Below, one piece after another: positions 6,894 through 23,408 of a stretch of 33,438 nt of DNA. The notes under the pieces are model-generated. The model worked only from the letters and a program-made list of their open reading frames with translations, ran no database searches and was not told the DNA's origin. Source of the DNA: an uncultured Verrucomicrobiota bacterium. GTDB lineage: Bacteria > Verrucomicrobiota > Verrucomicrobiia > Opitutales > Opitutaceae. A program made the translations under genes and the position numbers. The number at the start of each line of letters is the position of its first letter. Positions within the stretch are counted from its first letter, which is position 1. The DNA lies in contig CAJXQX010000044.1 in the NCBI GenBank assembly GCA_913058185.1, positions 1 through 33,438 on the forward strand, written 5' to 3'.

Positions 6894-6924
6894 TTGACAG
6901 GTGCTCAGGTAATATATTCATAAT
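6894..6924 (+). promoter_or_regulatory. Putative sigma70 promoter of the TonB receptor gene
   Basis: A perfect -35 box TTGACA lies at 6894-6899. The best -10 match is CATAAT at 6919-6924 (long 19-bp spacing); TTCATA at 6917-6922 would give 17 bp. Either -10 lies inside the 17-bp operator candidate, so a bound repressor would block polymerase. Confidence 0.5.
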
Positions 6925-6932
6925 TATTAATC
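6916..6932 (+). promoter_or_regulatory. Operator candidate, copy 1 of a 17-bp repeated box
   Basis: ATTCATAATTATTAATC occurs here and, as an exact inverted copy, at 23392-23408 before the symporter operon. The first 16 bases form a near-perfect palindrome around AATT (one mismatched pair). It overlaps the likely -10 of the TonB receptor promoter, 58 bp before the ATG. The adjacent LacI-family regulator is the best candidate to bind it. Confidence 0.55.
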
Positions 6933-6990
6933 ACGCGGTTTGATCGTCCTAACTTACTGCTTAACACCCCCAAAAAAACACCCTACACCC

Positions 6991-9900
6991 ATGTTTGATC
7001 GGACCTCCCCCGTCGCTCGTATTTTGAAGAGCATTTCCGCTGCGACCCTCGTAGCGTTTCCTTTGCCAGTTTTCGCCCAAGAATCGGCGGAAGAAGAAGA
7101 AGATGTCGTCACGATGTCGGTCTTCAGTGTCGATGCCAGCCAGGATCAAGGCTACCGCGCGACCAATTCTATTTCCGGCACATCGCTAAACGTGGCGATC
7201 CAAGATCTCCCGATGCCGATTGAGGTAATCACATCGGAGTTTGTGGAAGATCAACAGGCCACAGACTTTAAGGAAGCGCTTCGCTACACCTCAGGTGTCT
7301 TTACCTCTGAGTTCGACGAAAGCGGCGGTTCCAACTCTGCCGGAGCCAACGAATCCTACTCCAATGAGCGTTCACCTTCATCACGGGGAGGGGTTGGCGG
7401 AAGATTCTCCAATGCGGTGAGCATCCGGGGATACAACGTGCAGTTTCAGAATCGCATGGGTTTTCGCGTTGGAGGCACCGTTTCTGAATACGGGGTAACT
7501 CTGGGGGGCGCGCTTGATTCTCTGAATTACGAGCGTCTCGAAGTCGTGCGTGGCCCGTCTTCGTTGCTTTACGGCATCGGCGTTCTCTCGGGAATCGTTA
7601 ACATTATTCCGAAACGCCCATTGGCGGAGAATCAATTTAAGATCAATGCGTCCATAGGCAGCGACGGTTACCAGCGTTTCACGGCTGAGGCCACGGGGCC
7701 TTTGACTAAGAATCTTCGCTATCGTGTCGCCATTGCTGATGAGGAGCGAGACCACTGGACCGATTTCCAAAACAAGGATTTGGAGTTCTTCGTTGGGCAG
7801 CTCGAGTTTCAACCTTGGAAGACAATCAATATCTTGGCCGAATACCAGAAGTCGACCACGCGCTATGAAGGTATCGGGTCTCAATACATTTACGACAACT
7901 TGAGTGACCGTTCTTTTGGCGGGGAGAACCGCAACGCCTTCAACGAACAATTCAACTGGGCGCGTGATTTGAACGGAGCGTCAAATACCTATCGTATCTC
8001 CGGTCCGGACACGTTCGAGGAGCGGGAAGAGTGGGATTCGTTCGTAAATGTCGACATCATCCCCAATGAAAATTTGACCATCAATCTAGGTGGATATTGG
8101 GGCGGGCAGGAGACTAACCGTTTCGATATCGAGCCAGCCACGATCAACAACCAAGAGGCCAATCTATTTGTTAAGCGCCGGATTCGTTTGGGCCGGACCG
8201 AGCCACCTCGTTACCGCACCATTATTCAATACGTGCCGGACGAGTTCATTACCCAATATGATAATCCTCCTTCTGCGGTCTTCAACGACACCACCGATTT
8301 TAAAACGATCCGTTACTACTGGATGGATACGCCGCAAGAGGGGAAGTTTGAGCAATACCGGGCTCGGTTGAACTACACCTTCGAGACCCCCTTCATCAAG
8401 GGGCCAGCTAATCACAGTTTATTGATCGGTCGTCATGATATTAAGGATACCATCGACTACGATCAAGGAACCGAGCTCTTCCCTCGTTTGTTTGAGGCGG
8501 TCAATCTGACTCGAAATCCGGTACCGTCTTCCACTGATTCACTGGAATTTCGCAACGTAGGCACCATTGATCCTATTCGTTACAACGGTGAGTTGTTAGC
8601 TCAACCTGGTCGCGAATACCAGCAGACGGATATTTGGTATCAAGGTTCGTTCGCGGTTTACCAAGGACGTTTCTGGGATGATCGCATGATGCTGATCGCG
8701 GGATTGCGCCACGATCGTTATCAAGGACTGGAAAAACAATACGATCGTGGGGAGCCTCGGACGGGATTAATCGACAACCCGACGAACGAACTGAACGGGT
8801 TTGAAAGTGAGGAATATAACTTTGATGAGCCGATCGCGATCACGACCAACACCGTCGCATTCCGCTACGACATTCGGGAGGATCTAGCGATCTATGCATT
8901 GGCCGCCGAAGGCGTTTCACCTAATACGGGTGCGCTGGACGGAAACGATGATTTCATTGATGCTGAGCAATCCCTCTCCAAGGAAATTGGAATTAAATTT
9001 GAACTCATGGAGGGTAAACTCTCCGGCACTATCTCCGGATATCAAATTGAGCGTTCCAATGCGATCTGGAGCTTTGCCTTCGCGCCGAACCCGAGAGCGT
9101 GGGTGGGCGGCACAAACTCAGACGGTAACCGGGCTCGTGGTCTGCAAGACTTTGACGCTTCGGAGGTCTTGGATGGATCTGGGCCAATCGCCTACGGCGT
9201 TGATCGTTCCTACTTCGATCCAGCGGATATCGCTCGTGACCCCGTAACCCGCCAATTCCCTTTCGGTATCGTAGCTCTCGAAGGCCAGCACAACGGAACT
9301 CCAAATCCCCAGACTTACGTTTATCTGGACTATGCTAACCTCGATGCCGCGGGCTTCAGAGATGAAATCGAAGCGGCGTTTCGTGATTCTGATCGGGTTC
9401 GTGGGTTCACGAGCGACGAGATCAACTCGATGTTCTATACCCGAACCACGGGCACATTTTCCGGTCTGAATCCTAGCGGAGTAACCGGTAATACGAACGT
9501 GACCTTTGGCGATCGCGCTCGGGGATTTGATATGCAAATCATCTATGCGCCGATCGAGAATTGGCAGATGATTTTCAACTACGCTCACACTAAGCGGGAG
9601 ATTACCGATCCCTTTGGTATGGTCGCAGCTATCGATCAGATTTCCGGTGTCGAATTCGGCACGGAGTATGACAGCTGGGTTCGTGCCTTGGGTCGTGCCG
9701 CCTATGGTCTTGAGGAAGTCGATAACAATGGCGACGGCCTGCCCGATCAAATCCTAAAGGACGGTCAACCCGTATCGTTAACAAATGTCGTTCCGGCTAA
9801 TTCCAATACCGGTGGAATCGAAGGTGCGAACCTCTTCCTCGGGGCCGAAGACGAAGCGTCGTTCTGGAATAAGTATACCTTTAAAACCGGTCCACTCAAG

Positions 9901-10224
9901 CGGCTCTCTCTTTTGTTCGGTGCACGTTACACCGGGCCTGCGGCCACTGCGGTGACGGTGGGAGGAGCCAATTTGACGGCGAATCTTTATCCGACGCCTC
10001 CGACTGAAGCGCGTTATGAGTTCGATGCGGGCCTCACCTACACTCGCAAGTGGGGTAACTCCCAATGGCGCTTTGCTCTCAACGCCTACAACGTCGCCGA
10101 TAGCCAGAAGTCCTATAGCGAGGCTAGCTACAGCAACCTCTCCACGGGCGGAACCGAACTCCGCCGCACGCAAATTTATCACACCCCGCGATCCTATCGC
10201 TTCAGCGTCGGTGTGACCTTCTAG
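6991..10224 (+). CDS. TonB-dependent outer-membrane receptor
   Basis: A 1,077-residue outer-membrane active transporter. The ATG at 6991 gives a clean signal peptide (basic MFDRTSPVARILK, hydrophobic core, cleavage after VFAQ); an upstream in-frame TTG at 6940 would spoil it. After cleavage comes a probable TonB box (EDVVTMSVFSV), then the plug domain (LPMPIEVITSEF, SIRGYNVQ, LDSLNYERLEVVRGPSSLLYG, SGIVNIIPKRP) and a long beta-barrel ending in the terminal aromatic strand RFSVGVTF. There is no STN domain, so there is no sign of sigma/anti-sigma signalling. The size and style match oligosaccharide receptors of Opitutaceae-like bacteria, but a siderophore role cannot be excluded by sequence. 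Neighbours and the shared operator box argue for import of a glycan fragment handled by the minus-strand operon. Confidence 0.93.
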   Translation: MFDRTSPVARILKSISAATLVAFPLPVFAQESAEEEEDVVTMSVFSVDASQDQGYRATNSISGTSLNVAIQDLPMPIEVITSEFVEDQQATDFKEALRYTSGVFTSEFDESGGSNSAGANESYSNERSPSSRGGVGGRFSNAVSIRGYNVQFQNRMGFRVGGTVSEYGVTLGGALDSLNYERLEVVRGPSSLLYGIGVLSGIVNIIPKRPLAENQFKINASIGSDGYQRFTAEATGPLTKNLRYRVAIADEERDHWTDFQNKDLEFFVGQLEFQPWKTINILAEYQKSTTRYEGIGSQYIYDNLSDRSFGGENRNAFNEQFNWARDLNGASNTYRISGPDTFEEREEWDSFVNVDIIPNENLTINLGGYWGGQETNRFDIEPATINNQEANLFVKRRIRLGRTEPPRYRTIIQYVPDEFITQYDNPPSAVFNDTTDFKTIRYYWMDTPQEGKFEQYRARLNYTFETPFIKGPANHSLLIGRHDIKDTIDYDQGTELFPRLFEAVNLTRNPVPSSTDSLEFRNVGTIDPIRYNGELLAQPGREYQQTDIWYQGSFAVYQGRFWDDRMMLIAGLRHDRYQGLEKQYDRGEPRTGLIDNPTNELNGFESEEYNFDEPIAITTNTVAFRYDIREDLAIYALAAEGVSPNTGALDGNDDFIDAEQSLSKEIGIKFELMEGKLSGTISGYQIERSNAIWSFAFAPNPRAWVGGTNSDGNRARGLQDFDASEVLDGSGPIAYGVDRSYFDPADIARDPVTRQFPFGIVALEGQHNGTPNPQTYVYLDYANLDAAGFRDEIEAAFRDSDRVRGFTSDEINSMFYTRTTGTFSGLNPSGVTGNTNVTFGDRARGFDMQIIYAPIENWQMIFNYAHTKREITDPFGMVAAIDQISGVEFGTEYDSWVRALGRAAYGLEEVDNNGDGLPDQILKDGQPVSLTNVVPANSNTGGIEGANLFLGAEDEASFWNKYTFKTGPLKRLSLLFGARYTGPAATAVTVGGANLTANLYPTPPTEARYEFDAGLTYTRKWGNSQWRFALNAYNVADSQKSYSEASYSNLSTGGTELRRTQIYHTPRSYRFSVGVTF

Positions 10225-10299
10225 ACTCTCTCAGTTTGTTAGCGGCTGCCCACCCATTCCCGGGACAGTCAGCTGCAATCACCCCAAAACCAAAAAAAC

Positions 10300-11478
10300 A
10301 TGAAGAAAATAAACATAGCACTCGTAGCCGCAGCGCTGCTCACCGCTCCAATCGCCCAAGCGGCGTGGGAATCGGTTAATAACTTCGATTCTGGCAGCAC
10401 TGCTGGTATCACCCTCACCCGCACGTTCCCTGAGGAAACCACCAACGGTGGTATCTCGATCATCGCGGATCCCAATGATGCGTCCAAGGGCATCCTAGAA
10501 ATGGATCCCGGTATCTTCGGCGGTGATGGAACTCAAACGTTCAATGTCTGGATCTCGATCCCGTTTTCCGATATCGCTGCAACCGGAACGCTCTACGCCA
10601 AAATGAAGCGTGGTGAGTTGGTTGACGTTGTCTGGGGAACCTCCCCAACCGCGGAACCTGCTTCCTACGGTGATTACTCCTCAGCGCTTCGCTGGGAACT
10701 CGACGGCATCTTTGATTACCGTGCAGGTTCCGATGGTTACCCCGAGGTGACCAATGGTTCTTCGACAGCCGATACTTGGTATGAGACTTGGTTCGTGCTC
10801 AATTCCACCAGTCAAACCTATGATGCCTACATCAAGGGCGGCACCGAATTCCCTACCCAGACTAAGGTAGCAACCGGCGCATCGTTCCGTAAACAAGGCA
10901 CCGATCCTCAGAATCGCTTTTACGTGCGTATGTCCACGGGTGATATCACCAATCCAAAGTCGGTTGATAAAGTATGGCTGGACGATGTAACCGTCGACGC
11001 TTCTGGCGAAAATCTCACCACCCCAGGAACTGACATTGTTGTTCCAGATCCAGGTGTTGTCCCAACCCAGAATGGCTCCGGCGAACTCTCGAATATCTCC
11101 ACTCGTGGCGCAGTCTCTTCCGGCGAGAACGCTATGTTCGTTGGTTTCGTTCTTCCTGATGACTCCCGTCGCGTGCTCATCCGTGGTGGTGGACCAATCC
11201 TCGGTGGATTCGGCGTTAACGGTTTCCTCGCTAACCCTGTGATTACGGTTCGCAACTCCTCCAACGAGGTTGTCGCCACCAACACTAACTGGGAAGATAA
11301 CAGCAACTCCGCTTCGATTGCTCTCACTGCCGCTTCCGTCGGCGCGCAACCATTCACAACCGGTTCTGCTGACTCTGCTCTGATGCTCTTCCTCGCGAAG
11401 GGGGCTTACACGGTTGAGGTTTCCAGCGGCGACACCACTACCGGTGTTGTTCTCGCGGAAATCTACCGGATTCCTTAA
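10300..11478 (+). CDS. Secreted beta-sandwich protein with verrucomicrobial C-terminal domain
   Basis: A 392-residue exported protein with signal peptide MKKINIALVAAALLTAPIAQA. Residues about 22-240 look like a jelly-roll/LamG-like beta sandwich (WESVNNFDSG at the start, WYETWFVLNSTSQTYDAYI in the middle, KVWLDDVTVDA at the end), as in carbohydrate-binding or laminarinase-associated modules. A Thr/Pro linker (240-257) leads to a C-terminal domain at 258-392 that is clearly homologous to residues 459-593 of the next gene (GELSN-STRG, RRVLIRGGGP, FGVNG, LANP, ATN, AEIYRIP end). No catalytic motif is recognised. It follows the TonB receptor by 75 bp with an A/C-rich leader, so it may be co-transcribed and act as a surface glycan-binding protein; that is inference. 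Confidence 0.75.
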   Translation: MKKINIALVAAALLTAPIAQAAWESVNNFDSGSTAGITLTRTFPEETTNGGISIIADPNDASKGILEMDPGIFGGDGTQTFNVWISIPFSDIAATGTLYAKMKRGELVDVVWGTSPTAEPASYGDYSSALRWELDGIFDYRAGSDGYPEVTNGSSTADTWYETWFVLNSTSQTYDAYIKGGTEFPTQTKVATGASFRKQGTDPQNRFYVRMSTGDITNPKSVDKVWLDDVTVDASGENLTTPGTDIVVPDPGVVPTQNGSGELSNISTRGAVSSGENAMFVGFVLPDDSRRVLIRGGGPILGGFGVNGFLANPVITVRNSSNEVVATNTNWEDNSNSASIALTAASVGAQPFTTGSADSALMLFLAKGAYTVEVSSGDTTTGVVLAEIYRIP

Positions 11479-11529
11479 GGGAATTCTGTTCGCATCAAAT
11501 CACCATTCGGTGACTGATTGAAAAATTCG

Positions 11530-11568
11530 GCGAACGACCACGCATTCCGCGAGGTCGTTCGCTTTTTT
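11530..11568 (+). terminator. Rho-independent terminator
   Basis: Arms GCGAACGACC (11530-11539) and GGTCGTTCGC (11553-11562) form a perfect 10-bp stem with a 13-nt loop, followed by TTTTTT (11563-11568). It ends the TonB receptor/beta-sandwich transcript, so the next gene should have its own promoter or depend on read-through. Confidence 0.9.
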
Positions 11569-11597
11569 CTTAACTTTTTGATTAGTATTTTTCTCAA

Positions 11598-13379
11598 ATG
11601 AAGCTCCTCAGAACTCTCAGTTTGGTCGGTATCCTTGGCGGGATCGTGGCCCCAATTTCAGCGCAAATCTCGGACCCCATTCCCGGTTCGATCGATAAAG
11701 GAGATCTTCTCTTGGAGATCGAAAACTGGCTTCGCGCTCCAGCAACGGGTGGCAGTCCCCGCACCCGGATTTCCGTGACCAAGCCCGCTTACGATGGCTC
11801 GAACCGTGTCTTCAGCTGTGACCTTCGTGGACAGTTCTACGTGATCAGCAACGGCACCCTCACCGAATACGTTGATTTCAACGACGTCTTCCCGAATTTC
11901 CAGCCCGAGAATCGACTTGGAACCGGATTTCATTCCTTTGCGTTTCACCCCCTGTTCGAAACCAATGGAAAATTCTATACCGCGCATACCGAACCTGTAG
12001 GTTCAGGCCCGGCAGACTTCACGATGCCGAACTCGGATACGATCACGATGCAGAGCGTGATCATGGAATGGACCGCATCGATTCCCTCCGCCAATACCTT
12101 CTCCGGAACCCGTCGTGAAGTCATGCGGGTCGAGTATCATGAGCAGGTCCACAATGTGCAGGAGATCGCGTTCAACCATTTCATCGATTCAAGCAATTCT
12201 GACTATGGCATGCTTTATATCTGCTCCGGCGACGGAGAGGCCGTAAACCAAGGTTTCCCTGAAGTAGGACATCGCCTCGATACCGTTTACGGCACGCTCC
12301 TGCGGATCGACCCGATGGGAACAAATGCTACCAATGGAAAATATGGTATCCCGACGGATAACCCCTTTCTGAATGACAACAACGCGAATACCTTAGCCGA
12401 AATTTATGCCTGGGGATTCCGCAATCCGCACCGGATTGTCTGGGACTCAGAAAATCCCGATCGGCTATTCCTGTTCGATATCGGAGAGCGGAGTATCGAA
12501 GAGGTAAACCTCATCGTGAAGGGTGGAGACTACGGTTACAGCCAACGCGAGGGCACTTTCCTGATGAATACGGCGGTCGACTCCGATGTGGTCTTCCCGT
12601 TGCCGGCGAATGAAAGTTCTTTCAACTACGTGTATCCGGTCGCGCAATACGACCACGACGAAGGTCGTGCGATTGCAGGCGGCCAAATCTATCGCGGAAC
12701 CAAGTGGCCAGAGCTGAACGGCAAATTGCTCTTCGGTGATATCGCCAACGGCCGAATTTTTTATGTAGATGCCGATAGCCTTACCTTAGGTTCTCAAGCC
12801 ACCTTCAAAGAATTGCGGCTGAAAAATGTCGTCGAACGGAGTCTGTTGCAGATCGTGGGGCAATCCCGCACTGATCTTAGATTCGGCATCATGGAAGATG
12901 GGGAAATCTTAATCACCACCAAGCGCGATGGATGGATTCGTCGATTCACGCCACCGCCTGAGCCAGAGATGAATGGCACGGGCGAACTCTCAAATCTGTC
13001 CACCCGCGGTAGCGTAGGTGGTGGTGGCGATGTCATGATTGGTGGATTTGTCATCATAGAAAACAACCGACGTGTCATGGTTCGTGGCTTAGGTCCGACC
13101 TTGGCGGCCTTCGGAGTCAACGGAGCTTTGGCCAATCCTAAGATCACCGTTTATAATGCGTCGGATGAGGTCGTCGCCACAAATGATGATTGGGGTAACG
13201 AATCGAATGCTGCGAGTATTGCTCTCACTGCGATGTCACTCGGTGCGACCGCATTGGCCAACGGCAGTGCTGATGCCGCTACCATGCTCTTTCTGCCCAA
13301 GGGGGCCTACACCGTTCATCTCGAAGGGGTGGATGGTGGAACCGGCGTTGGTCTCATCGAAATTTACAAGATACCTTAA
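11598..13379 (+). CDS. Secreted PQQ-type sugar (glucose/sorbosone) dehydrogenase-like protein with C-terminal domain
   Basis: A 593-residue exported protein. A signal peptide (MKLLRTLSLVGILGGIVAPISAQ) precedes a six-bladed beta-propeller of the glucose/sorbosone dehydrogenase family at about residues 45-455. Marks are FHSFAFHP, the GDGEAVNQGFP loop, GTLLRIDPMG, EIYAWGFRNPHRIVWD, LFLFDIGERSIEEVN and IAGGQIYRG. Family members are soluble, often PQQ- and calcium-dependent, and oxidise aldoses or related alcohols in the periplasm or outside the cell. A proline-rich linker leads to the C-terminal domain at 459-593, shared with the upstream gene. Whether PQQ is actually used is not provable here and no PQQ synthesis genes are present. 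Only 35 bp separates the T-run of the preceding terminator from the ATG. Confidence 0.82.
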   Translation: MKLLRTLSLVGILGGIVAPISAQISDPIPGSIDKGDLLLEIENWLRAPATGGSPRTRISVTKPAYDGSNRVFSCDLRGQFYVISNGTLTEYVDFNDVFPNFQPENRLGTGFHSFAFHPLFETNGKFYTAHTEPVGSGPADFTMPNSDTITMQSVIMEWTASIPSANTFSGTRREVMRVEYHEQVHNVQEIAFNHFIDSSNSDYGMLYICSGDGEAVNQGFPEVGHRLDTVYGTLLRIDPMGTNATNGKYGIPTDNPFLNDNNANTLAEIYAWGFRNPHRIVWDSENPDRLFLFDIGERSIEEVNLIVKGGDYGYSQREGTFLMNTAVDSDVVFPLPANESSFNYVYPVAQYDHDEGRAIAGGQIYRGTKWPELNGKLLFGDIANGRIFYVDADSLTLGSQATFKELRLKNVVERSLLQIVGQSRTDLRFGIMEDGEILITTKRDGWIRRFTPPPEPEMNGTGELSNLSTRGSVGGGGDVMIGGFVIIENNRRVMVRGLGPTLAAFGVNGALANPKITVYNASDEVVATNDDWGNESNAASIALTAMSLGATALANGSADAATMLFLPKGAYTVHLEGVDGGTGVGLIEIYKIP

Positions 13380-13414
13380 CCCACCAACTTAGTTACCCGG
13401 TAAGGGGTTTAATA

Positions 13415-13452
13415 GATCGCGGGGATTCCCCAGGGTGTGGGTCCCCGCGGTC
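13415..13452 (+). terminator. Terminator-like hairpin after the sorbosone dehydrogenase-like gene
   Basis: GATCGCGGGGA (13415-13425) pairs with TCCCCGCGGTC (13442-13452): 11 bp with one G-U wobble and a 16-nt loop. No T-run follows, so termination would need Rho or be leaky. It starts 35 bp after the stop codon. Confidence 0.55.
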
Positions 13453-13664
13453 GCTTAGGGGGTTAACTCATAGTGGAACGCGCCGCTACCTCGCATAGCG
13501 ATACCTTGAACTTTAACCAATATGGTTAAAATTTGGTGGGGTGGGTTTCGTGGGTTTGTTGTCGTCTGAGCGGTAGAGTGGAGAGGCGTCGGACGACACG
13601 GAGATATCGTCTCTCTGGAGCGGTGAGGTGAATGCACCCGTTACGAATCTCTCGGCGCGGGTAG

Positions 13665-13691
13665 GGCGGTTTCGCCGAAACCGCCGGTTTC
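13665..13691. repeat. Overlapping alternative hairpins (REP-like)
   Basis: GGCGGTTTC (13665-13673) pairs perfectly with GAAACCGCC (13677-13685). The same GAAACC (13677-13682) can instead pair with GGTTTC (13686-13691). The two structures exclude each other. The layout resembles intergenic REP units. Confidence 0.5.
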
Positions 13692-13903: not shown

Positions 13904-14686
13904 CTATGCCGCCCACACACCGCCGTTAATATCTAACGTGGCGCCAGTGATGAAACCATCAAACTCGCTGGCGAAAAATACCACGGCGCGCGCGATGTCT
14001 TCGACCTTGCCTGCGCGCCCAAGCGGAATGCCAGCGATCGTGGCATTGGCGGATTCGTTGGAGGTGTGCGTGTTGTGAAAAGAGGTTCCCAGGATGAGTC
14101 CTGGTGCCAACGCGTTGACTCGAATTCCTTTCGGGCCGAGTTCGTTGGCCAACCCCCGCGTGAAGGTGAGCACTGCGCCTTTGGAGGTGGCGTAGGCGAG
14201 TGAACCTGGATGACCACCTTTGCGACCGGCCAGGGAGGCTAAATTGACAATGCTGGCGCCACCACGGGTGGCGGCAGCTGTTTCGAGGTGCGGTTGAGCT
14301 GCTTGGGAGACACGCCAAAGACTGTCGACATTGAGCGCCATGACCTTGGTCCAGAATTCGTCATTGATGGTTTCGAGATTGTGACGCGCAACCAAGGAAC
14401 CGGCATTGTTAATCAGGATGTCCACTCCACCGAGTGATTCGACAGCGGCTGACACCAGTTTGGCGCCTCCATCAGAAGTGGTGAGGTCACCCGCGGCGGC
14501 CCCAAATTTACGACCGAGTTTGGCTGCGATGGCAGAAAGCTCCTCGGCTCCGGCCGCACTGGTGTGATAGTGGACGAACACGTCGCAACCCGCGTTGAGT
14601 AGGGCAGAGCTGGTCGCAAGACCGATACCTTGGGCTCCCGCGGTGACTAAGGCCCGTTTACCGTTAAGTTTGGTAGAGTCGCTCAT
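13904..14686 (-). CDS. Short-chain dehydrogenase/reductase, last gene of the lyase operon
   Basis: A 260-residue SDR. The Rossmann motif reads TAGAQGIGLAT (residues 15-25), NNAG follows near 93, the catalytic YATSK (YxxxK) near 166 with Ser in VNLASLAG, and the C-terminal GATLDINGGVWA end is typical. It begins 15 bp after the lyase stop and ends the seven-gene minus-strand operon. The family covers sugar, keto-acid and acyl-ACP reductases. The context favours a sugar-acid or keto-uronate substrate, for example a 5-keto-4-deoxyuronate/2,5-diketo step as in KduD or DehR-type reductases, but this cannot be told from sequence alone. Confidence 0.85.
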   Translation of the reverse strand: MSDSTKLNGKRALVTAGAQGIGLATSSALLNAGCDVFVHYHTSAAGAEELSAIAAKLGRKFGAAAGDLTTSDGGAKLVSAAVESLGGVDILINNAGSLVARHNLETINDEFWTKVMALNVDSLWRVSQAAQPHLETAAATRGGASIVNLASLAGRKGGHPGSLAYATSKGAVLTFTRGLANELGPKGIRVNALAPGLILGTSFHNTHTSNESANATIAGIPLGRAGKVEDIARAVVFFASEFDGFITGATLDINGGVWAA

Positions 14687-14701
14687 GATTTTCCAAAGGT
14701 G

Positions 14702-16822
14702 TTATTCGATGACGAGACGGGTGTCAGTCAAAGTGAGGGTGTCTGTCTTTCCGTCGGGGCGATGGACCACGAGTTGACCCTCGTCATTGCGATAGGCCTG
14801 GATACGAGCCACCTTGTAACGGTCGGGTTCGGGCCACAATACCGAGAAGACTTCGTGTGTGGCGGCCAGCTTACGCGTGGTCAGAGTAAGATTGGCGTGA
14901 TCGCGCCACTCAGCAGTGACCCAAGCATAGGTTTCCTTGGAACGATACCGCGGATCTATGGGAGCCGGATATTCGTCGGTGATATCAGCAAACCAGGTAA
15001 GTGGAGGCGTGGCCATCACTGCCGATAGCGCGGCTTTTCCACCCACGATTCGGGCGGTTTGATCTCGGTTCTGCCAGCTCATGCCAAATTCGCCATGGAG
15101 TAACCACGATAGTTGAGAAGGGTAAGATGTTGTCACCTGATCGCGCACAATCACATAACGTTGATCGATAAAGACTAGGTCCCGTAAAACCTTCTTAAGA
15201 TGGTTCCCTGGTTGCATGGTATCGTAGGCCGTTTTGGCATCGCCCGTGGTCCACACGTAACGATCACCCACTTCAAATCTGGTGATTTCACCCGAGGCAT
15301 TCTTGTCCTGTTGCCGTTGGCCCAATCCATCGATGAGGACACCGTTTTTGGAACGAGTTTGCCAGGACCATGCTTTGTGATGGGGGGAACGGTGAAACTC
15401 TCGGTTAGCAGAATTGATGGCTAACCCTTCGCCATAGCCATTGATAATGAAGGTGTTTTGATCAGGGTGACTATGACTGTAAGACCCGTAGGGTGAACTC
15501 TTGAAAGTGATATGAATATCGTTCTCTGGGTCGCCCAAAGCGGAGTGCATAGACACCCAACCCACATCATCAAAAAAGTGAGAAGACGGTAATTCGGACA
15601 AGGGCGCCGGCTCTACCTTCGGGAATCGGCTGCCGATAAAGTTACGGATTAAAAACTCGCCAGCGGTGGGATAGGTGCGGGCCAGTGTCCCCATGCCCAT
15701 CAGAGCGGGCGATTCACGCGGATCGTCGCACAGTGCGGCGTAGGTCAGGAAATAACCATTTTGCTGAACCCGCCCCAGATGATTGAGGTAGTCGGCCATC
15801 ACGGGTTCCAAATTGAAATGCCCCGCGTTGGAGACGTCACCGAATGTCGTGTGGAGGTAAGGCTGGACGTTGTAGAGGGCGAAGTATCCGGTGTTCTTCC
15901 AGAAGGGAGAGGCGTAGGCGAGAGGATCATCAATGGCCAGAAGACCATCTTGGAAACCGGCGTGTTCGAAGGTGCCGCGCCAATAGGCGTTACCCTCGGC
16001 CCAACCTCCGGCATCACCGGCGAAGGGACTGAATTGGTCGCGGTAAAAGGTGTAGGAAAAATCATACCAATCATGGGCTTGCTCGGGCAGGTCGTCCCAA
16101 AGGGCGAGACCGGTGAGGCCAACCATGGCCATAAACCGAACAGGGTGACTAGAGGGCTTAACTTCGAGTGAATTTCGTTTGAGTCCAGCTATGTTGGACT
16201 TGCGAATCCAGCGCACGGTGCGTTCACCGCGCTCTTTAAAATGGGCCAAGACTTTGGCGCGTTCGGCCGCCGTCAATTCATCACGGAGCTGATCGTAGAC
16301 CATGGGGAGTTTGCGCCAGAGGCGGAAGTTTCCTTCGTCGTTGTAGTAAACGTCGGTAGCACCTGGAACTTCTCCGGATTCCCAGTCAGGGCCGAGAACC
16401 CAGTCGGTGGATGTGAGTAAAAACTCCTTCGCTTTCTCGAGATATTTTTCTTCATCCGTCACCAACCAAACGAGCGTAGCTGCTTCCGCAATTCCGGCGA
16501 TGTTGCCAGTAAGGTCCTGCACTCCACGCCAACGGTCGGTTTTGTGCGAATCGCGTTTGCTCGGTTCCGGGTCGCCGTAAGTGAGGGGATCTTCCGGATG
16601 AGGGAAGGACATGTAAGTCGCGTCTAAGTCGCGTTTGATCGCATCGAACGCAGCAAGCCCTTCCCCTGTGGTGCAGTAGGCTCGAAACGCATCTCGCTGA
16701 CCGGCGACCACCATGGTGCGTGGTCCACTGGCGGGAACTTGATATGGTGTGTCGGCGGAGAGGCACCCAGCGGTAGCCACTAACACCGACAAAGTGACGG
16801 GGAGAAATCGTTTAATATTCAC
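14702..16822 (-). CDS. Exported heparinase II/III-like polysaccharide lyase
   Basis: A likely 706-residue secreted or lipid-anchored lyase. I chose the GTG at 16820-16822: it lies 2 nt after the DUF2264 stop and yields a proper export signal (MNIKRFLPVTLSVLVATAGC, then LSAD). The upstream ATG at 16927 would overlap the previous gene by 100 bp and put the signal 36 residues in. A Cys at the end of the hydrophobic core suggests a possible lipoprotein. The N-terminal half is an (alpha/alpha)-toroid of the DUF4962 type (GDAGGWAEGNAYWRG). The C-terminal beta-sandwich has the heparinase II/III signature near residue 445 (GSYSHSHPDQNTF). Such enzymes cleave uronate-containing polysaccharides by beta-elimination, producing the unsaturated ends that GH88 removes. 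Exact PL family and substrate are open. Confidence 0.8.
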   Translation of the reverse strand: MNIKRFLPVTLSVLVATAGCLSADTPYQVPASGPRTMVVAGQRDAFRAYCTTGEGLAAFDAIKRDLDATYMSFPHPEDPLTYGDPEPSKRDSHKTDRWRGVQDLTGNIAGIAEAATLVWLVTDEEKYLEKAKEFLLTSTDWVLGPDWESGEVPGATDVYYNDEGNFRLWRKLPMVYDQLRDELTAAERAKVLAHFKERGERTVRWIRKSNIAGLKRNSLEVKPSSHPVRFMAMVGLTGLALWDDLPEQAHDWYDFSYTFYRDQFSPFAGDAGGWAEGNAYWRGTFEHAGFQDGLLAIDDPLAYASPFWKNTGYFALYNVQPYLHTTFGDVSNAGHFNLEPVMADYLNHLGRVQQNGYFLTYAALCDDPRESPALMGMGTLARTYPTAGEFLIRNFIGSRFPKVEPAPLSELPSSHFFDDVGWVSMHSALGDPENDIHITFKSSPYGSYSHSHPDQNTFIINGYGEGLAINSANREFHRSPHHKAWSWQTRSKNGVLIDGLGQRQQDKNASGEITRFEVGDRYVWTTGDAKTAYDTMQPGNHLKKVLRDLVFIDQRYVIVRDQVTTSYPSQLSWLLHGEFGMSWQNRDQTARIVGGKAALSAVMATPPLTWFADITDEYPAPIDPRYRSKETYAWVTAEWRDHANLTLTTRKLAATHEVFSVLWPEPDRYKVARIQAYRNDEGQLVVHRPDGKTDTLTLTDTRLVIE

Positions 16823-16824
16823 AA

Positions 16825-18720
16825 TCAGGAGGTGATTTGAGGAATGAGTTCGTGCTCGAGTGACCAATTTCCGAGCGAAGGATGCTGGAATTCGATTTGT
16901 CCCGGTTGAGATGAAACGATTGTCCATGCTTGAGCTTCTTCGCGGTCTGATCCGACCCAGGCGAGAGCGACTAATACTCCCGTTTCGCCAGCGGCATGAC
17001 CGTTTGAATCGGTATGGGCCACGGCCGTGGTATGGAAAGGCCGGCGCAAGTGCGTCCGCAAAGTCGAATCATCGAGGCGTTTTTCCCAATCGTGGCCAGT
17101 GAAGCCGTGGAGAGGATGCAGGATGGAACCTTGGCCTTCCGACCAAACGGATAGCAGGTCATTTTTCGCGGATTTTTTGAGCGTAGCAGGATCAGCAGAA
17201 CTCAGCGCATATCCACCGACCCGTAATACGGCCGGTTGGCGATTTTCGAATGCGTGAATTTGGAAAATCCATCCCGCCTTCCACCAGACTCCGGTATCGA
17301 CACTGCAATTGGTCTGTCCCGGTTTGAATCCCAGATTGTAAACGTAGCGAACGTGGTCTTCTTCCATCTCAACCGTGACGGTTGAGTGGCGGCCGAACAC
17401 TCGGCCATCAGGGATCTCCATAGTCAACGCCGAGTCCGGCGACCAGTTGGTTGGGTTAGGACGAGCGAGGGTGAAATCGACCCCGGTGCGATAGGCAGTC
17501 TTGCTCCATTTCCAAGCTCCATAACGCAGATTCACATTGGAGATTTGAGAACCGGAGTTGATGATCTCAACTTCGCCCCCGACACTGCGAACGGTGAGCC
17601 CGGCCGTGGGAATGTTGCAGGTGTGGTCACCGAGTTCGGAAGGTAATGGTTCTTCCGGAGCATGCCAAAATTCGTGATCAGGTGGAAGTAAAAGAGGAGA
17701 TAGTCCTTTTGCCGACCAATAGGGTGAGCCACCGCAGGAATAGGTTTCTCCGAGGTCAGGGAACTCATCGAGCCAACCCATCGAGAGCAGACCTTGCGAT
17801 TGTTGGATCGGATGGCGGAGGAAGAAATCGAAATTACGGGTGCAGAGACGTCGTAGCTGACCGAGCGGTAAGTCGGTGGCATCCAGGGCCACGGCGAGAC
17901 CGAAGACGTTTATGCCATTGAAGCGGTAGGTGATCGAACGTCCGAAAGCCGGATGTTCACCGGAAGCGGCGAAGAAGTGGCGGTAGTCCCGCACAAACGG
18001 ACGAGCCCAATCCTTCCAACGTTGAGCTCTAGCGGGATTAACATGGCCGTGAAGGCGAGCCCACCAGAGGCCGTAAAAATGAAATGCGTAGGCGTTGTAA
18101 TGATCGTATGCTTGATTGATGCCATCTTCAAACCAGCCCCCACCGCGATGCATGCCTTCGAGGCGATCCAGGAAGGTGTCGATCACGATGCGGTCGGTCG
18201 ATCGACCGTAACCTTTTGTAATGAGGAATTCCAGAATGTGGACCCCCATGAAGTAATGATTGTTGTTTACGATGCCATTGCCGCGCGCGGTTCCGAGCCA
18301 TTGCGCGACTTGATCCTTGTGCGCCTGACTGAGTGGCTCCCACAAAACCTCAGGAGCAATTTGGAGTGCGATTGCTAACAGACCAATCTCAACGTGATGT
18401 TGGTGGTAGTTGGCATCTGGACCCCAATAGTCAGGACTATTCGGGTCGGACCCAACGGCTAGTCCGTTGCGGAACCATTCACCGAGAGTCCGCCGCAAGT
18501 CTTCATCATCAGGATGATCAGCGCTCTGAAGCCAGTGCGCAGCGAGAAGCAGAGGACGGGCGAAAGACTCGAGCCTATCTGCTTGGACGTCGTGATCACT
18601 GACTTGGCCTTCGATCGGAATATCGGCGGCACCGGGCGCCATGAAAGGCACCAGCGGCTCTAATAGACTCCGAGTCTGATTTTGCCAGTGACGGTAAGCG
18701 GGAGGAAGATCGATAGACAT
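16825..18720 (-). CDS. DUF2264-domain protein
   Basis: A 631-residue protein of the DUF2264 family, recognised from DHDVQADRLESFARPLLLAAHW near the N-terminus, GPDANYHQHHVEIGLLAIAL, NNHYFMGVHILEFL, GGGWFEDGINQAYDHYNAYAFHFYGL and GRSITYRFNG. ATG at 18718-18720 (MSIDLPPAYRHW) is preferred because it starts at the domain and 25 bp after the previous gene's stop; an upstream ATG at 18801 would add 27 residues inside that gene. No signal peptide, so probably cytoplasmic. DUF2264 has no settled function; its predicted helical-toroid region followed by a beta-rich part resembles polysaccharide lyases and glycosidases. Sitting right before the heparinase-like lyase in the operon, it is a strong candidate for an enzyme acting on imported uronate oligosaccharides. 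Confidence 0.8.
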   Translation of the reverse strand: MSIDLPPAYRHWQNQTRSLLEPLVPFMAPGAADIPIEGQVSDHDVQADRLESFARPLLLAAHWLQSADHPDDEDLRRTLGEWFRNGLAVGSDPNSPDYWGPDANYHQHHVEIGLLAIALQIAPEVLWEPLSQAHKDQVAQWLGTARGNGIVNNNHYFMGVHILEFLITKGYGRSTDRIVIDTFLDRLEGMHRGGGWFEDGINQAYDHYNAYAFHFYGLWWARLHGHVNPARAQRWKDWARPFVRDYRHFFAASGEHPAFGRSITYRFNGINVFGLAVALDATDLPLGQLRRLCTRNFDFFLRHPIQQSQGLLSMGWLDEFPDLGETYSCGGSPYWSAKGLSPLLLPPDHEFWHAPEEPLPSELGDHTCNIPTAGLTVRSVGGEVEIINSGSQISNVNLRYGAWKWSKTAYRTGVDFTLARPNPTNWSPDSALTMEIPDGRVFGRHSTVTVEMEEDHVRYVYNLGFKPGQTNCSVDTGVWWKAGWIFQIHAFENRQPAVLRVGGYALSSADPATLKKSAKNDLLSVWSEGQGSILHPLHGFTGHDWEKRLDDSTLRTHLRRPFHTTAVAHTDSNGHAAGETGVLVALAWVGSDREEAQAWTIVSSQPGQIEFQHPSLGNWSLEHELIPQITS

Positions 18721-18745
18721 TATCGGTAAAATTCGGATCGGGTAG

Positions 18746-19750
18746 TTAAGTGGAATGATCGTAAACGACGGGAGTGATTTGGCCGGAGAGTTCCTCTCCA
18801 TTCAGATACGCGGCTAGGTTCAATAAGCCGTGGGCACCGGCATCTCTGCGGCGATCTGACGTTGGGCCTGCTAAATGCGGTGATAGTGAAACATTGCTCA
18901 GCCCGCGGAACCCAGAGTCTGCCGGCAGTGGTTCCTGAGAGAATACATCCAAACCGATGGAAATCTCTCCTTCCCGAGCGATTTTTTCCAACGCGATTTC
19001 ATCAACGGTGGCTCCACGTCCGACATTTACAAAAACACTGCCTGGGCGAAGGAGTCGAAGGTGGTCTTCCCCGATCGAGCGACGGGTTTCTTCGATCAGG
19101 GGGGCGAGTTCGACGATGACGTCGTGTTCGCTCATTAACTCGTCCAACGACGCGATTGAGCGGACATTGTCAGCGATACCTTTTTCAGGATTCATATCTG
19201 GTGCGAGAACGCCTATGTTGCAGCCAAATGGGCGCAACAGCTCGATCAGTGAGTGAGCCACGCGACCATAACCACGAAGCCCTACGCGTCGGCCAAACAG
19301 GGAGGCGGTTTGACTAGTGCGTGCTTTCCAAGCACCATGAACGTGCATTTGCACCGCCCAGTGAGGGGAGCGTCGCAAACAACTCAATACATGAAGCAGT
19401 GCGCCTTCCGCGACGGTTCGACTGATGGAATGTCCCCAGTTGGTGACGACAAGACTATCGGTGATATGCTGACGGGTAACGAGTTTCTTAACCGATCCGG
19501 CGAGGTAGCACACGTAACGGAGCGCAGGTGGCAAGACGTCGGGAAGGGGAGGCGTCTTCCAGCATGAGACCAGTATCTCTGGATTAATCTCACGCAGACG
19601 CTCGTGCCACTCTTCCAACGAAATGTCCGATGGATCGATGTGAGTGTGCGGTTTTGAATAGGAGAGGAGTTCGTCGTGCATGCCGGCCGGAAGAAACTCG
19701 CGAGTTTCGATATCCGTTAGGCATTCGAGGAGAGGTTTGGGGGTAAACAT
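18746..19750 (-). CDS. D-2-hydroxyacid dehydrogenase (PGDH/glyoxylate reductase-like)
   Basis: A 334-residue NAD(P)-dependent D-isomer 2-hydroxyacid dehydrogenase. The nucleotide-binding motif is RVGLRGYGRVA, where the last Gly of the usual GxGxxG is Ala. The catalytic triad is visible: Arg in NVGRGATVDE, Glu in DVFSQEPLP and His in SPHLAGPT. The start is taken at the ATG 19748-19750 (MFTPKPLLECL), two bases after the manA stop; an ATG at 19771 would overlap manA. Family members reduce 2-keto acids such as hydroxypyruvate, glyoxylate or 2-ketogluconate. Within this operon a sugar-derived 2-keto acid is the likely substrate, and it may pair with the IdnO-like SDR. Confidence 0.83.
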   Translation of the reverse strand: MFTPKPLLECLTDIETREFLPAGMHDELLSYSKPHTHIDPSDISLEEWHERLREINPEILVSCWKTPPLPDVLPPALRYVCYLAGSVKKLVTRQHITDSLVVTNWGHSISRTVAEGALLHVLSCLRRSPHWAVQMHVHGAWKARTSQTASLFGRRVGLRGYGRVAHSLIELLRPFGCNIGVLAPDMNPEKGIADNVRSIASLDELMSEHDVIVELAPLIEETRRSIGEDHLRLLRPGSVFVNVGRGATVDEIALEKIAREGEISIGLDVFSQEPLPADSGFRGLSNVSLSPHLAGPTSDRRRDAGAHGLLNLAAYLNGEELSGQITPVVYDHST

Positions 19751-19752
19751 GT

Positions 19753-20847
19753 TCAAGCAGGAGGTAGGCACTCGAGGATCCGAGCAGATGGAGTGCGGGG
19801 GGTAATCTGCAGATCGGTCAGACCCGCAGGGGTGAAAAATTTGTCGTAAGTTTTTAGATGGTGAGTCTTGCCACCTGCGCTTACTTCAACTTCTCCGGCC
19901 GTGACGATATTGATCGAAAACGTGTCGGAGGATTTGGAAAAACTGTCCGCGACATGAGTCTGACCGACGCGGAAGCACGACGTCTTATCGGTGCCAATCA
20001 ATGTCTCCTGCCAAGACTCCGAGCTAAGCGCGGTGCGGTCGGAGGGAGCGCAAGCGAACTTGGTCGCCACGGATTCGAGCGGATAGGCGGACTGGTCCAC
20101 CATGGAGAGTCCAAAATCTACGTCGCGCCCCATGAAACGGGCAGCCTCTGGTAACACGTATCCGGCTCGCTCAAACTCAAATCTAATGGCAAAATCGGTG
20201 GGCTCCTGAATCTCTACCATGAATAAACCCTCGCCAAGGGCATGGGGTGTTCCGCCGGGAATGAAATAGGTGTCTCCGGGTTTTACCGGGATCTTATCGA
20301 AACAAGCTTCAAGGGCGGCAATGTCCTGGGTTTCAATCCAGTGCCGTAGATCATTCTGATCGGGCGGTCGCTGAAACCCGACGTAGATGAAGGGATCGGT
20401 GACATCTTCTCGGACCGAAAGGATGTGGTAGGCCTCGGTTTTTCCACTCGGGGAGTTTAGCACCCGCCGAGCAAACTCATTGGAAGGATGGCATTGGAAA
20501 TGGAGTCGGATTGCTGAATCTAAAAACTTGATAAGCAGCATGGGAGAAACGCCGTGTTTCTCCACGTGATCGGCTCCCAAAAAGTAAGTGGGATCTGATT
20601 CCAGTAAGGCTTTAAAGTCGTGGATTTCGTCGCTGACTAAAACCTGAGAGACTCCTTCTTGCACCGATTCGCGTCCCCGGTTTACGGCGCGTGTCATGGA
20701 GCCAATCCAGTCCTCCGAGAAATGAGAATCATCCGGGGCTGGTTTACCGGCCAATCGATCCAGCGTCGCTCCACCCGGATAAGTCCGCCAGACGCGATTT
20801 TGCGGCAAGAGGACTAACTGGTCGTGTAGAGGTTTAATGGATACCAT
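19753..20847 (-). CDS. manA: Mannose-6-phosphate isomerase, class I
   Basis: A 364-residue cupin-type metal isomerase that interconverts mannose-6-phosphate and fructose-6-phosphate. Zinc ligands are all in place: Gln118 and His120 in HFQCHPSNEF, Glu138 in GKTEAYHIL and His202 in GGTPHALGEG. Length fits the short class-I form. It lies 8 bp after the IdnO-like SDR start-to-stop chain and directly before the hydroxyacid dehydrogenase, so it is an operon member. Its presence could mean the glycan carries mannose, or that this paralogue acts on another phosphorylated or free aldose; sequence cannot decide. Confidence 0.85.
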   Translation of the reverse strand: MVSIKPLHDQLVLLPQNRVWRTYPGGATLDRLAGKPAPDDSHFSEDWIGSMTRAVNRGRESVQEGVSQVLVSDEIHDFKALLESDPTYFLGADHVEKHGVSPMLLIKFLDSAIRLHFQCHPSNEFARRVLNSPSGKTEAYHILSVREDVTDPFIYVGFQRPPDQNDLRHWIETQDIAALEACFDKIPVKPGDTYFIPGGTPHALGEGLFMVEIQEPTDFAIRFEFERAGYVLPEAARFMGRDVDFGLSMVDQSAYPLESVATKFACAPSDRTALSSESWQETLIGTDKTSCFRVGQTHVADSFSKSSDTFSINIVTAGEVEVSAGGKTHHLKTYDKFFTPAGLTDLQITPRTPSARILECLPPA

Positions 20848-20855
20848 GGCAAAAA

Positions 20856-21617
20856 TCAGATTACGGCAGTTAGACCGCCATCGAGCATCAGAATCTGACC
20901 ATTGAGGAAATCAGAAGCGGGGCTCGCCATGTAGACTGCTGCGCCGGTGAGGTCGGACACCTTGCCCCAACGACCGGCTGGAGTGCGGCCCTTGATCCAG
21001 CCATCAAATTTTTCGTCAGCCATCAAGGGGGCAGTGAGTTCGGTCGCGATGTAACCGGGACCGATACCATTGATCTGAATATTGTGCTGGGCCCATTCAC
21101 CACACATCGCTCGAGTGAGCATTTGTAGTCCACCCTTGGCGGCCGCGTAGTTGCCCGTCGTGGGTCGAGCGAGCTCACTCATGAGTGAGCATATGTTGAT
21201 AATTTTACCTGCTCGAGACTCGATCATGGCCGGGGCAAAAGCCCGGCTGACGAGAAAGGCACTGGTGAGGTTGGTCGAAAGGACGGTCTCCCAATCCGCC
21301 AGGGACATGTCGATCAGAGGCGAACGTCTTTGGATGCCGGCGTTATTAACCAACACATCAATGGGGCCGATGGTATTGGCGGCGGCGGTCACTTCACTCT
21401 CAGAGGTGACGTCGAACGGACAACCGGTAACGGCCAAGCCGGCCGCTTTTAATTCGGCTACGGCAGCGTCCAGTTTTGCGGTATCGCGTCCATTTAGAAC
21501 CACCTCGGCGCCCGAATGCGCCAAAGCGCTGGCCAACGCTTTTCCAATGCCCTGGGAAGAGCCGGTGATAAGTGCTTTTCGGCCTTGGAGGCTGAAGTTC
21601 GGTGCGGAATTATTCAT
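20856..21617 (-). CDS. IdnO-like SDR (gluconate 5-dehydrogenase family)
   Basis: A 253-residue SDR. ATG at 21615-21617 follows the symporter stop by 4 bp; a TTG at 21620 could add one residue. Motifs are TGSSQGIGKALA, NNAGIQRRSPLIDM, IINICSLMSELARPTTGNYAAAKGG (catalytic Ser and YxxxK) and NGIGPGYIATELT. The NNAGIQRR, INICS-SEL and GRWGK/SDFLNGQ strings match the E. coli gluconate 5-dehydrogenase IdnO as I recall it, more than a generic FabG. IdnO reduces 5-keto-D-gluconate. Related enzymes (KduD) act on 2,5-diketo-3-deoxygluconate from uronate breakdown. In an operon with an exported uronate lyase the KduD-type role is plausible; the two cannot be separated by eye. Confidence 0.85.
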   Translation of the reverse strand: MNNSAPNFSLQGRKALITGSSQGIGKALASALAHSGAEVVLNGRDTAKLDAAVAELKAAGLAVTGCPFDVTSESEVTAAANTIGPIDVLVNNAGIQRRSPLIDMSLADWETVLSTNLTSAFLVSRAFAPAMIESRAGKIINICSLMSELARPTTGNYAAAKGGLQMLTRAMCGEWAQHNIQINGIGPGYIATELTAPLMADEKFDGWIKGRTPAGRWGKVSDLTGAAVYMASPASDFLNGQILMLDGGLTAVI

Positions 21618-21621
21618 CAAG

Positions 21622-23370
21622 TCAGGTCGGTTCTTCGCCCTTTGAATGGCGGACCAGTAATGTGCCGATCCCCATCACCGTGAGTCCGCAGAATACAAAG
21701 GATAGTCGTCCCAGCGGAGGGTTGGGAATCAAGGTCATCAGTAAAACCACGGCGCCGTAGGGAATACAGAGCCAACCCATCATGCGGGCCTGTTTATTGT
21801 CGGATGAGGGAGCTGATTCCTCTTCGGCGTAGTTGACGGGTCTATCCACATTTTTGGAGAAGATTTCGATGTCCGCCTTAACCGCAGGATCCTGAAATTC
21901 GTAGAATCGACGGGTGAAGAGGAACCACGCTACACCGGCCCCGGTGATTGTGAATACGCCAATGCCTTGTTCCCAGTTCTGACGTTCCCATGTCGTAATT
22001 CCATCGGTGGAACCGAATATTCCGACAGCCCAATCGATATTAAGAAACGTGTTGGTTAGGAAACTGACAAAGAAGCAAACCACCAGCGTCGACCATCCAG
22101 TCCAACCCGGGGTCCGGCGGATGATTAATCCCAGCACGAGCGGAACCACATAAGGTAGGCTCACCAGGATTTGGAACTTCAACATCAGTTCGAACAGTGA
22201 GAGGCCCTTAATCTGGCTATAGAATATCGCGATCATGATCACGAGCAGTCCCAGCACGACGGTCACACTCTTACCGACATTGAGTAGTTCCTTGTCCGTG
22301 GCGTCGGGTCGAAGTATCGGTTGGTAGAAATTCTTGACGAAGATACCCGCATTTCGATTCAGCCCTGAATCCATCGAGGACATCGTGGCCGCAAAAATAC
22401 CTGCCGCCAAAAGCCCCATCATGCCAACCGGGAAAACGGTTTGGGCGATGGCGAAATAGGCACCTTCCGCCGGTTTACCCAAGCTGGGGAAAACGGTGCC
22501 TAGATCCGTGGGATTCATCGACTGAATCATGGGAGGAAGGAACCAAAAGAAGACGCCTCCCAAGAAAAGACACCCGGCGAGAATGCCGGCTTTTCGGGCA
22601 TGCTTACTGTCCTTCACGCAAAGATACCGGGACGCATCGTTGAGGTTGTTGGTCGACAGAAATTGTTTCAGGAAGATAGCGACACACCAAAACAGGAGAT
22701 AATCATCAGTGAAGAGCTTACCCATATCCAGCCGCGTGGTGCTTAGTTTCTCCACGACCGTGTGAAAGCCGCCGGCGTGAGCCACCGCGAGCACTGCGGT
22801 GATTATCGTGATGGGGATGAGGATAAGCACCTGCACGAAGTCACTGGCGATAACCGCCCAACTTCCACCCAAGAGAGACATCAGGAGCACACAAAGTCCG
22901 GTAATGACGATGGTGATTTTTACATCAAATCCGAATGCAGCTGAGAAAAAGATACCCATGCCGTAGAGCCAGATTCCTCCCGTCATCAACTGCAGCGGCA
23001 TGATAATCCACGTGAAGGTTTGTTCGCTACCTCGCCCAAACCGTTGCTTGACCGCTTCCATCGAAGTAATCACCCGCAGCTGTCGCATTTTGGGGCCAAA
23101 GTAGACCGCGTTGAAAAAGAAGCCCACGGCGTTGGCGACAAAGATCACCATGATGGGCCATCCATCCAAGTAAGCGCGACTGGATGCACCGGTGAAGGTC
23201 CAAGCGCTGAATGATACCATGAAGGCTGATCCTCCAGCCATCCACCACATCACCTGTCCGCCACTCCGGAAATAACTGCCGACATCTGAAACGAAGTGCC
23301 GGAATACCCAGCTGATCGTCAGCATGAAAACAAAGTAGAGAGCGAGAACAGCGAGGTCGTAAGGTGTCAT
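21622..23370 (-). CDS. Sodium:solute symporter (SSS/SGLT family)
   Basis: A 582-residue inner-membrane transporter with about 13-14 hydrophobic segments, starting MTPYDLAVLALYFVFMLTISWVF. The core contains WWMAGGSAFMVSFSAWTFTGASS (first inverted-repeat helix), WAVIASDFVQVLILIP and GLLAAGIFAATMSSMDSGLNRNAGIF, which are typical of the SSS family; the last holds the conserved Ser/Ser sodium-site region. The protein should bring a sugar or uronate oligomer across the inner membrane with Na+. It is the first gene of the seven-gene operon and is preceded by the 17-bp operator candidate 21 bp before its ATG. No Shine-Dalgarno sequence is visible. Confidence 0.92.
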   Translation of the reverse strand: MTPYDLAVLALYFVFMLTISWVFRHFVSDVGSYFRSGGQVMWWMAGGSAFMVSFSAWTFTGASSRAYLDGWPIMVIFVANAVGFFFNAVYFGPKMRQLRVITSMEAVKQRFGRGSEQTFTWIIMPLQLMTGGIWLYGMGIFFSAAFGFDVKITIVITGLCVLLMSLLGGSWAVIASDFVQVLILIPITIITAVLAVAHAGGFHTVVEKLSTTRLDMGKLFTDDYLLFWCVAIFLKQFLSTNNLNDASRYLCVKDSKHARKAGILAGCLFLGGVFFWFLPPMIQSMNPTDLGTVFPSLGKPAEGAYFAIAQTVFPVGMMGLLAAGIFAATMSSMDSGLNRNAGIFVKNFYQPILRPDATDKELLNVGKSVTVVLGLLVIMIAIFYSQIKGLSLFELMLKFQILVSLPYVVPLVLGLIIRRTPGWTGWSTLVVCFFVSFLTNTFLNIDWAVGIFGSTDGITTWERQNWEQGIGVFTITGAGVAWFLFTRRFYEFQDPAVKADIEIFSKNVDRPVNYAEEESAPSSDNKQARMMGWLCIPYGAVVLLMTLIPNPPLGRLSFVFCGLTVMGIGTLLVRHSKGEEPT

Positions 23371-23391
23371 GGGGTAGAAAACCCAATCGGA

Positions 23392-23408
23392 GATTAATAA
23401 TTATGAAT
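23392..23408 (-). promoter_or_regulatory. Operator candidate, copy 2 of the 17-bp repeated box
   Basis: The minus strand reads ATTCATAATTATTAATC, identical over 17 of 17 bases to 6916-6932 before the TonB receptor. It lies 21 bp upstream of the symporter ATG and 46 bp downstream of the lacI-type stop codon. A clear -35/-10 pair could not be fixed here, but CATAAT within the box is a -10-like match. Confidence 0.55.

Follow-up and report, generated by a model that had tools for sequence, protein, structure and literature searches.

We describe a short palindromic box and a LacI-family regulator, P0001, encoded beside it in a 33,438-nucleotide stretch of DNA (hereafter the window) from an uncultured Verrucomicrobiota bacterium of the Opitutaceae. 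The box is very probably the operator of P0001, because it marks genes apparently used to digest alginate and travels with this LacI through relatives. As judged from sequence, it would define a scattered regulon for alginate use. Its predicted members are the genes for a TonB receptor, a PfkB protein and two secreted PL6 lyases, together with a symporter operon that also encodes SDR reductases and a relative of an oligo-alginate lyase. Alginate is the most likely substrate, since outer-membrane uptake, lysis, symport, reduction of 4-deoxy-L-erythro-5-hexoseulose uronate (DEH) and phosphorylation of 2-keto-3-deoxygluconate (KDG) all have candidates. The alginate breakdown pathway itself is established knowledge.

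The 17-mer ATTCATAATTATTAATC occurs exactly at window positions 6916-6932 (plus strand) and 23392-23408 (minus strand) and nowhere else in the genome (G000), an assembly of 4.09 Mb with 159 contigs that is 99% complete. A sequence-only reading of the window had placed a near-palindromic box just upstream of two transporter genes and next to a lacI gene, and these details are confirmed: copies and strands agree, the first 16 bases form a palindrome with one pair broken, the ATG codons of the TonB receptor (6991) and the symporter (23370) lie 58 bp and 21 bp past the box, and the lacI gene ends 46 bp from the second copy. At up to three mismatches of the 17-mer, the window holds four matches, namely the two sites counted once per strand, where shuffles lead one to expect 0.04. 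The same threshold adds three palindromic sites and one stray match across the whole genome, where the reversed-pattern control gives one match per strand. The palindromic form of 16 bp, RTTMATAATTATKAAY, is matched perfectly at five places in the 4.09 Mb and with one mismatch at two more. With three mismatches this 16-mer pattern matches 65 times per strand against 48 for the reversed pattern, which is mostly noise, and interpretation in this genome is therefore limited to sites with at most one mismatch. Sites on C14 and C78 (two mismatches) and on C76 (three mismatches of the 17-mer, inside a long open frame) were inspected and dropped. A match at C121:1295-1308 (L259), with one mismatch to the 14-mer TTMATAATTATKAA and three to the 16-mer, is not counted; it is asymmetric and partial, lies over the start of a 221-aa frame and is probably due to chance.

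Each of the five perfect sites stands before a gene or operon that suits the use of alginate or uronates, which supports and extends the earlier suggestion that the two window copies belong to one regulon. Besides the receptor and the symporter operon, the genes concerned encode two AlyGC-like PL6 lyases and a PfkB-family kinase. The site at C35:14276 lies 17 bp before the gene for a 1188-aa protein with a Chondroitinase_B/PL6 domain, and that at C73:13510 stands where the open frame of the second PL6 protein (835 aa, start codon uncertain) begins, with a sulfotransferase-like gene about 125 bp off on the other side. Compared with solved structures, these two proteins match AlyGC (1.3e-71) and the alginate lyase 8bwk (2e-58), chondroitinase B being much weaker, and by homology both are predicted to be PL6 alginate lyases. 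The fifth site, C9:34862, is 93 bp before the PfkB-family gene and has an amidase gene about 430 bp off on its other side. The best NCBIfam matches of the PfkB protein are KDG-type models, but all fall below cut-off, so we call it “PfkB family, KDG-kinase-like” and do not assign it as a KDG kinase. Within the symporter operon, homology to the solved oligo-alginate lyase 3a0o suggests a similar role for the protein at 14702-16927, which we take to be a member of PL15. A search for PL7 gave no match in this genome, but as it gave none in any control genome either, this negative carries no weight.

The regulator P0001 has 349 aa from a GTG start at 24504. Its LacI-type ligand domain is clear (PF13377, 2.9e-24), and the headpiece scores 16.0 bits with PF00356, under the Pfam cut-off of 27; phmmer matches to CcpA and PurR cover both headpiece and core. 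P0001 thus combines the N-terminal helix-turn-helix and the periplasmic-binding-protein-like core of the LacI/GalR family, and a predicted palindromic operator lies near both its target genes and its own gene. The eight other LacI-family loci of the genome, found by PF00356, have no box at up to one mismatch.

Relatives of the regulator were compared across 150 genomes of the family, 50 of which carry a lacI relative above 200 bits; 55 loci reach at least 188 bits. A 129-bit fragment in G026 was counted as lacI-negative and stands outside the 55, and one further relative from a separate contig scan, probably the same record as G128:C274, enters no count. As controls we took 39 LacI loci from among the weaker listed matches, two of them without alignment, leaving 37. 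The pattern YTNATAATTATNAR occurs within 400 bp on either side of the 55 relatives in 19 cases exactly, in 32 with at most one mismatch and in 38 with at most two, counts that are partly circular because 30 of these loci served to refine the pattern. With the reversed pattern the counts are 2, 2 and 18; only the two stricter thresholds are specific, given this rise to 18/55 at two mismatches. The 37 other LacI-family genes have no match in their flanks even at two mismatches. Where the box is found with at most one mismatch, it lies downstream of lacI in 23 relatives and upstream in 15. An independent set, made up of 22 loci with 32-39% identity from four further families of the order, yields 6, 14 and 20 at the same three thresholds against 0, 2 and 6 for the reversed pattern. 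In this set one locus has 16 bp of sequence upstream and one only 19 bp downstream, and four second matches without a locus were left out. Two genomes, G089 and G127, each hold two paralogues of the regulator, with an exact box upstream of every one.

The box is also kept at its presumed targets, in line with the expectation of conservation beside orthologues. Close relatives have it between the lacI and symporter genes, and all five lacI-positive genus relatives in the 150-genome sample retain it at one mismatch or fewer of YTNATAATTATNAR, with the symporter behind each. The 14-mer TTMATAATTATKAA, again at up to one mismatch, precedes the orthologous TonB genes of G064 (in two copies), G090, G128 and G145 in a comparison that did not take in G020, and the PL6 orthologue of G090, G128 and G145. 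At the level of whole genomes, exact boxes are found in 34 of the 50 genomes with lacI (74 sites) versus 12 of the 100 that lack the gene (15 sites; Fisher p = 5.5e-12), and the reversed pattern has no such association (9/50 vs 14/100, p = 0.63). This is equally seen within the 14 genera that are mixed for lacI, where boxes occur in 24 of 32 genomes with the gene vs 3 of 42 without; none of 100,000 within-genus permutations reaches this value.

Several observations weigh against the assignment of the box to P0001 and to alginate. The count over the 55 loci has the circularity noted above, and at two mismatches it is only moderately specific (38/55 vs 18/55 reversed). No box at one mismatch or fewer lies within 400 bp of 23 of the 55 relatives, among them L041-L043, which are 52-54% identical and have ALVSM or GLVSM helices; and 12 genomes with exact boxes lack lacI. 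A PF14592 scan finds three PL6 genes in this genome; two are boxed, and the third (C16) is without a site for 6.5 kb even when two mismatches are allowed. Neither of the two sites with one mismatch to the 16-mer is at an obvious alginate gene: one precedes a multicopper oxidase gene (C29:15950-15965, L063), and the other stands between divergent DUF1800/CHRD and beta-helix-like genes (C85:4212-4227, L062). The unboxed relatives and the lacI-less genomes with boxes would be expected if a different regulator of alginate genes owned the box and the LacI gene were merely its neighbour, and binding by this LacI is deduced from sequence comparison. We nevertheless consider such a regulator improbable: the boxes flank this LacI group and not the 37 other LacI genes, with the same result in four other families, the paralogues of G089 and G127 each have their own exact upstream box, and box presence follows lacI within genera.

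A still less probable explanation, to which we give very little weight, is that we are dealing not with an operator but with an AT-rich element of a promoter, an extended -10 that can be read from either strand, or with a repeat that arose by chance. The box is AT-rich and contains CATAAT, an exact TTGACA (6894-6899) lies upstream of the receptor copy, and the sequence-only reading had this copy overlap the -10 of the receptor promoter. However, a promoter scan of the plus strand at this box found no sigma-70-like pair with a spacer of 16-18; the best -10-like hexamer within it, CATAAT at 6919-6924, is 19 bp from TTGACA and so outside the scanned spacer, which leaves the overlap unproven. The shuffles, the reversed-pattern controls and the gene context, with no more than five perfect sites in the genome, each of them before functionally linked genes, lead us to reject this explanation, and the presence of the box tracks a single regulator gene. 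The regulon might also be real but serve another uronate polymer, such as a glycosaminoglycan or ulvan. The PL6 family also takes in chondroitinase B, which counts against alginate even though the alginate lyases have the better scores; upstream of lacI there is a KduI-family gene, and a distant relative in genus g44 is near DUF4955 and pectate-lyase-like genes. We regard another polymer as unlikely, though the least unlikely of these alternatives, since three proteins, boxed enzymes or members of the operon, have alginate lyases as their best matches among solved structures. An operator of P0001 that governs alginate use thus remains our preferred interpretation.

The protein and its proposed operator depart from the classical pair at matching places. 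The rules given by Camas et al. (PMC2978694) for LacI-family regulators tie hinge Ala and Leu to a central CG of the operator, and G at operator -6 to an Arg at position 20. According to Ravcheev et al. (PMC4052901), the operator centre is CG for 1173 of 1303 regulators and a different one for 49. In the EbgR-like subfamily, the central CG has been lost along with the hinge residues (Francke et al., PMC2329647). Hinge Ala and Leu occur together in none of the 55 relatives (Ala in 0, Leu in 3) versus 26 of the 37 other LacI genes. The column of the recognition-helix Arg holds Leu in 37 relatives, Met in 16 and Lys in 2, while 20 of the 37 other LacI genes have Arg; the helix of P0001 reads QALVSL. 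Three loci of genus g8 with Met for Leu in this helix (L041, L042 and L043) come from genomes that have one to three exact boxes elsewhere. Among 40 lacI-adjacent sites with at most one mismatch, T stands at -6 in 40/40, A at -1 in 36/40 and T at +1 in 38/40, figures that are partly built in, as the sites were picked by an AATT-centred pattern. With neither the hinge Ala/Leu nor a central CG, P0001 and its box fall outside the canonical CG-centred (CcpA-like) subclass, in support of the earlier proposal of a variant operator class. The correspondence is a correlation only, but it fits a matched change in protein and site. P0001 is a LacI-family protein by architecture and the kind of regulon is familiar; the headpiece without the hinge pair, together with an even, AT-centred operator, makes it a variant.

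We infer binding, repression, an effector and alginate as the inducing substrate, and propose the following mechanism. P0001 would bind as a dimer, each subunit reading one half of TTMATAA-TTATKAA, where Leu in place of the helix Arg would suit T rather than G at operator -6, and loss of the hinge Ala-Leu would suit AA-TT rather than CG at the centre. The regulator most likely represses, since its sites lie 16-93 bp before those start codons that can be placed. Release may be brought about by an alginate-derived oligouronide, DEH or KDG. Autoregulation could act through a weak site right before lacI, where the sequence-only reading had seen a weaker match: TATAATAGTTATCAGT at 24517-24532 differs from YTNATAATTATNAR at two positions, and a match with at most two mismatches is found 19-28 bp before lacI in 16/55 relatives vs 0/37 other LacI genes.

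Candidate operators and annotated genes in the window
Feature	Position	Strand	Evidence
Operator box before TonB receptor (16-bp palindrome plus C), candidate	6916-6932	+	exact 17-mer; orthologue boxes
TonB-dependent receptor	6991-10224	+	Plug PF07715 3.4e-13; NCBIfam TonB receptor models all below cut-off
SDR oxidoreductase, possible DEH reductase	13904-14686	-	PF13561 4.5e-53
Oligo-alginate lyase relative	14702-16927	-	3a0o oligo alginate lyase 3.3e-56; Hepar_II_III_C, DUF4962
DUF2264 protein	16825-18801	-	PF10022 9.8e-95
2-hydroxyacid dehydrogenase	18746-19771	-	PF02826 3.2e-39
Cupin / ManA-like protein	19753-20847	-	domain and NCBIfam matches
SDR oxidoreductase, possible DEH/KDG-type reductase	20856-21620	-	PF00106 9.1e-58; gluconate 5-dehydrogenase and KduD models below cut-off
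SSF sodium:solute symporter	21622-23370	-	PF00474 1.2e-35
Operator box before symporter operon, candidate	23392-23408	-	exact 17-mer; kept in genus relatives
LacI-family regulator P0001, GTG start, proposed reader of box	23455-24504	-	PF13377 2.9e-24; box co-occurrence
Weak candidate site before lacI (autoregulation)	24517-24532	-	TATAATAGTTATCAGT, 2 mismatches from YTNATAATTATNAR
KduI-family isomerase	24982-25950	-	PF04962 1.7e-65

The KduI-family gene lies directly upstream of lacI, as it also does in G090 (L113), and the window scan with the 17-mer at up to three mismatches gives no separate box for it. In genus g44 (L128, L129, L133, L134 and L136), the LacI relatives are distant (37% identical) and belong to clusters in which boxes precede other large genes; one of these encodes DUF4955 and a pectate-lyase-like domain and may point to another uronate glycan.

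Some of the proteins behind boxes have a part in common with the PL6 lyases. An orthologue of the multicopper oxidase in G064 (L111), 65% identical, also carries a box variant, and a pair of the C85 type with an AA- or TT-centred site is found in three species of the genus (this genome, G090 and G128; 67-87% identical). A blastp label of “PL6” for the proteins at C29, C85, L111, L115 and L118 is wrong for their main domains and reflects an accessory-domain match only: a Pfam scan of C29, L111 and C85 gives multicopper oxidase for the first two and DUF1800/CHRD plus a weak beta-helix for C85, and the proteins at L115 and L118 match the C85 pair at 67-87%. The accessory stretch, of about 270 residues and 39-43% identical, is common to both boxed PL6 proteins (residues 916-1187 at L012 and 559-830 at L014), the multicopper oxidase and both C85 proteins, and is unnamed by Pfam. 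Because they have this stretch in common, the multicopper oxidase, the C85 pair and the boxed PL6 lyases may be parts of one secreted system, which we offer as a lead. On balance, and with clear reserve, we favour the broader view that the Opitutales hold an order-wide LacI subclass that has lost the hinge motif by which DNA is kinked, and that recognises AT-centred operators of 16 bp via a hydrophobic recognition helix. It would control alginate use and, through conserved sites, secreted proteins (multicopper oxidase, DUF1800/CHRD, beta-helix-like) that have the accessory domain of the boxed PL6 lyases.

The proposed regulon resembles known systems in part. The local sugar regulons of LacI/GalR proteins described by Ravcheev et al. 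(2014, PMC4052901) are alike in their even palindromes near catabolic start codons, mostly local control and autoregulation, but their operators mostly have a central CG where the box has AA-TT. Verrucomicrobiota is not among the seven phyla named in that study, whose main text has no instance of “Verrucomicrobi”. The EbgR-like LacR, GalR and RafR of Lactobacillus (Francke et al. 2008, PMC2329647) have likewise lost hinge Ala/Leu along with the central CG; their operators, however, are odd palindromes around a single central C or G, whereas the box is even, and they are described with a conserved helix Arg in place of the Leu or Met found here. AusR of Zobellia galactanivorans (PMC8286568) is a repressor of an alginate regulon that is released by alginate oligosaccharides, much as we suppose for repression and effector here, but it belongs to the GntR family and our candidate to the LacI family; the same review names AlgO of Sphingomonas as a regulator. 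A paper on alginate-grown Verruconatronum (PMC13274419) does not contain “LacI” in its main text and gives a KdgR/GntR cupin-HTH regulator in a table. The titles and abstract starts that came up in the open-licence literature showed neither a Verrucomicrobiota LacI operator nor a LacI alginate regulon.

Starting from one box, these results put forward a definite regulator, its operator and a set of genes with which this group of Verrucomicrobiota would use alginate. The link of hinge-pair loss to an AT operator centre in dozens of natural relatives offers a clean set for the rules of LacI recognition. Because the DNA-binding domain falls below the Pfam LacI cut-off, annotation may overlook proteins of this kind and the regulons they control, and the operator may be used to find more alginate genes in uncultured relatives.

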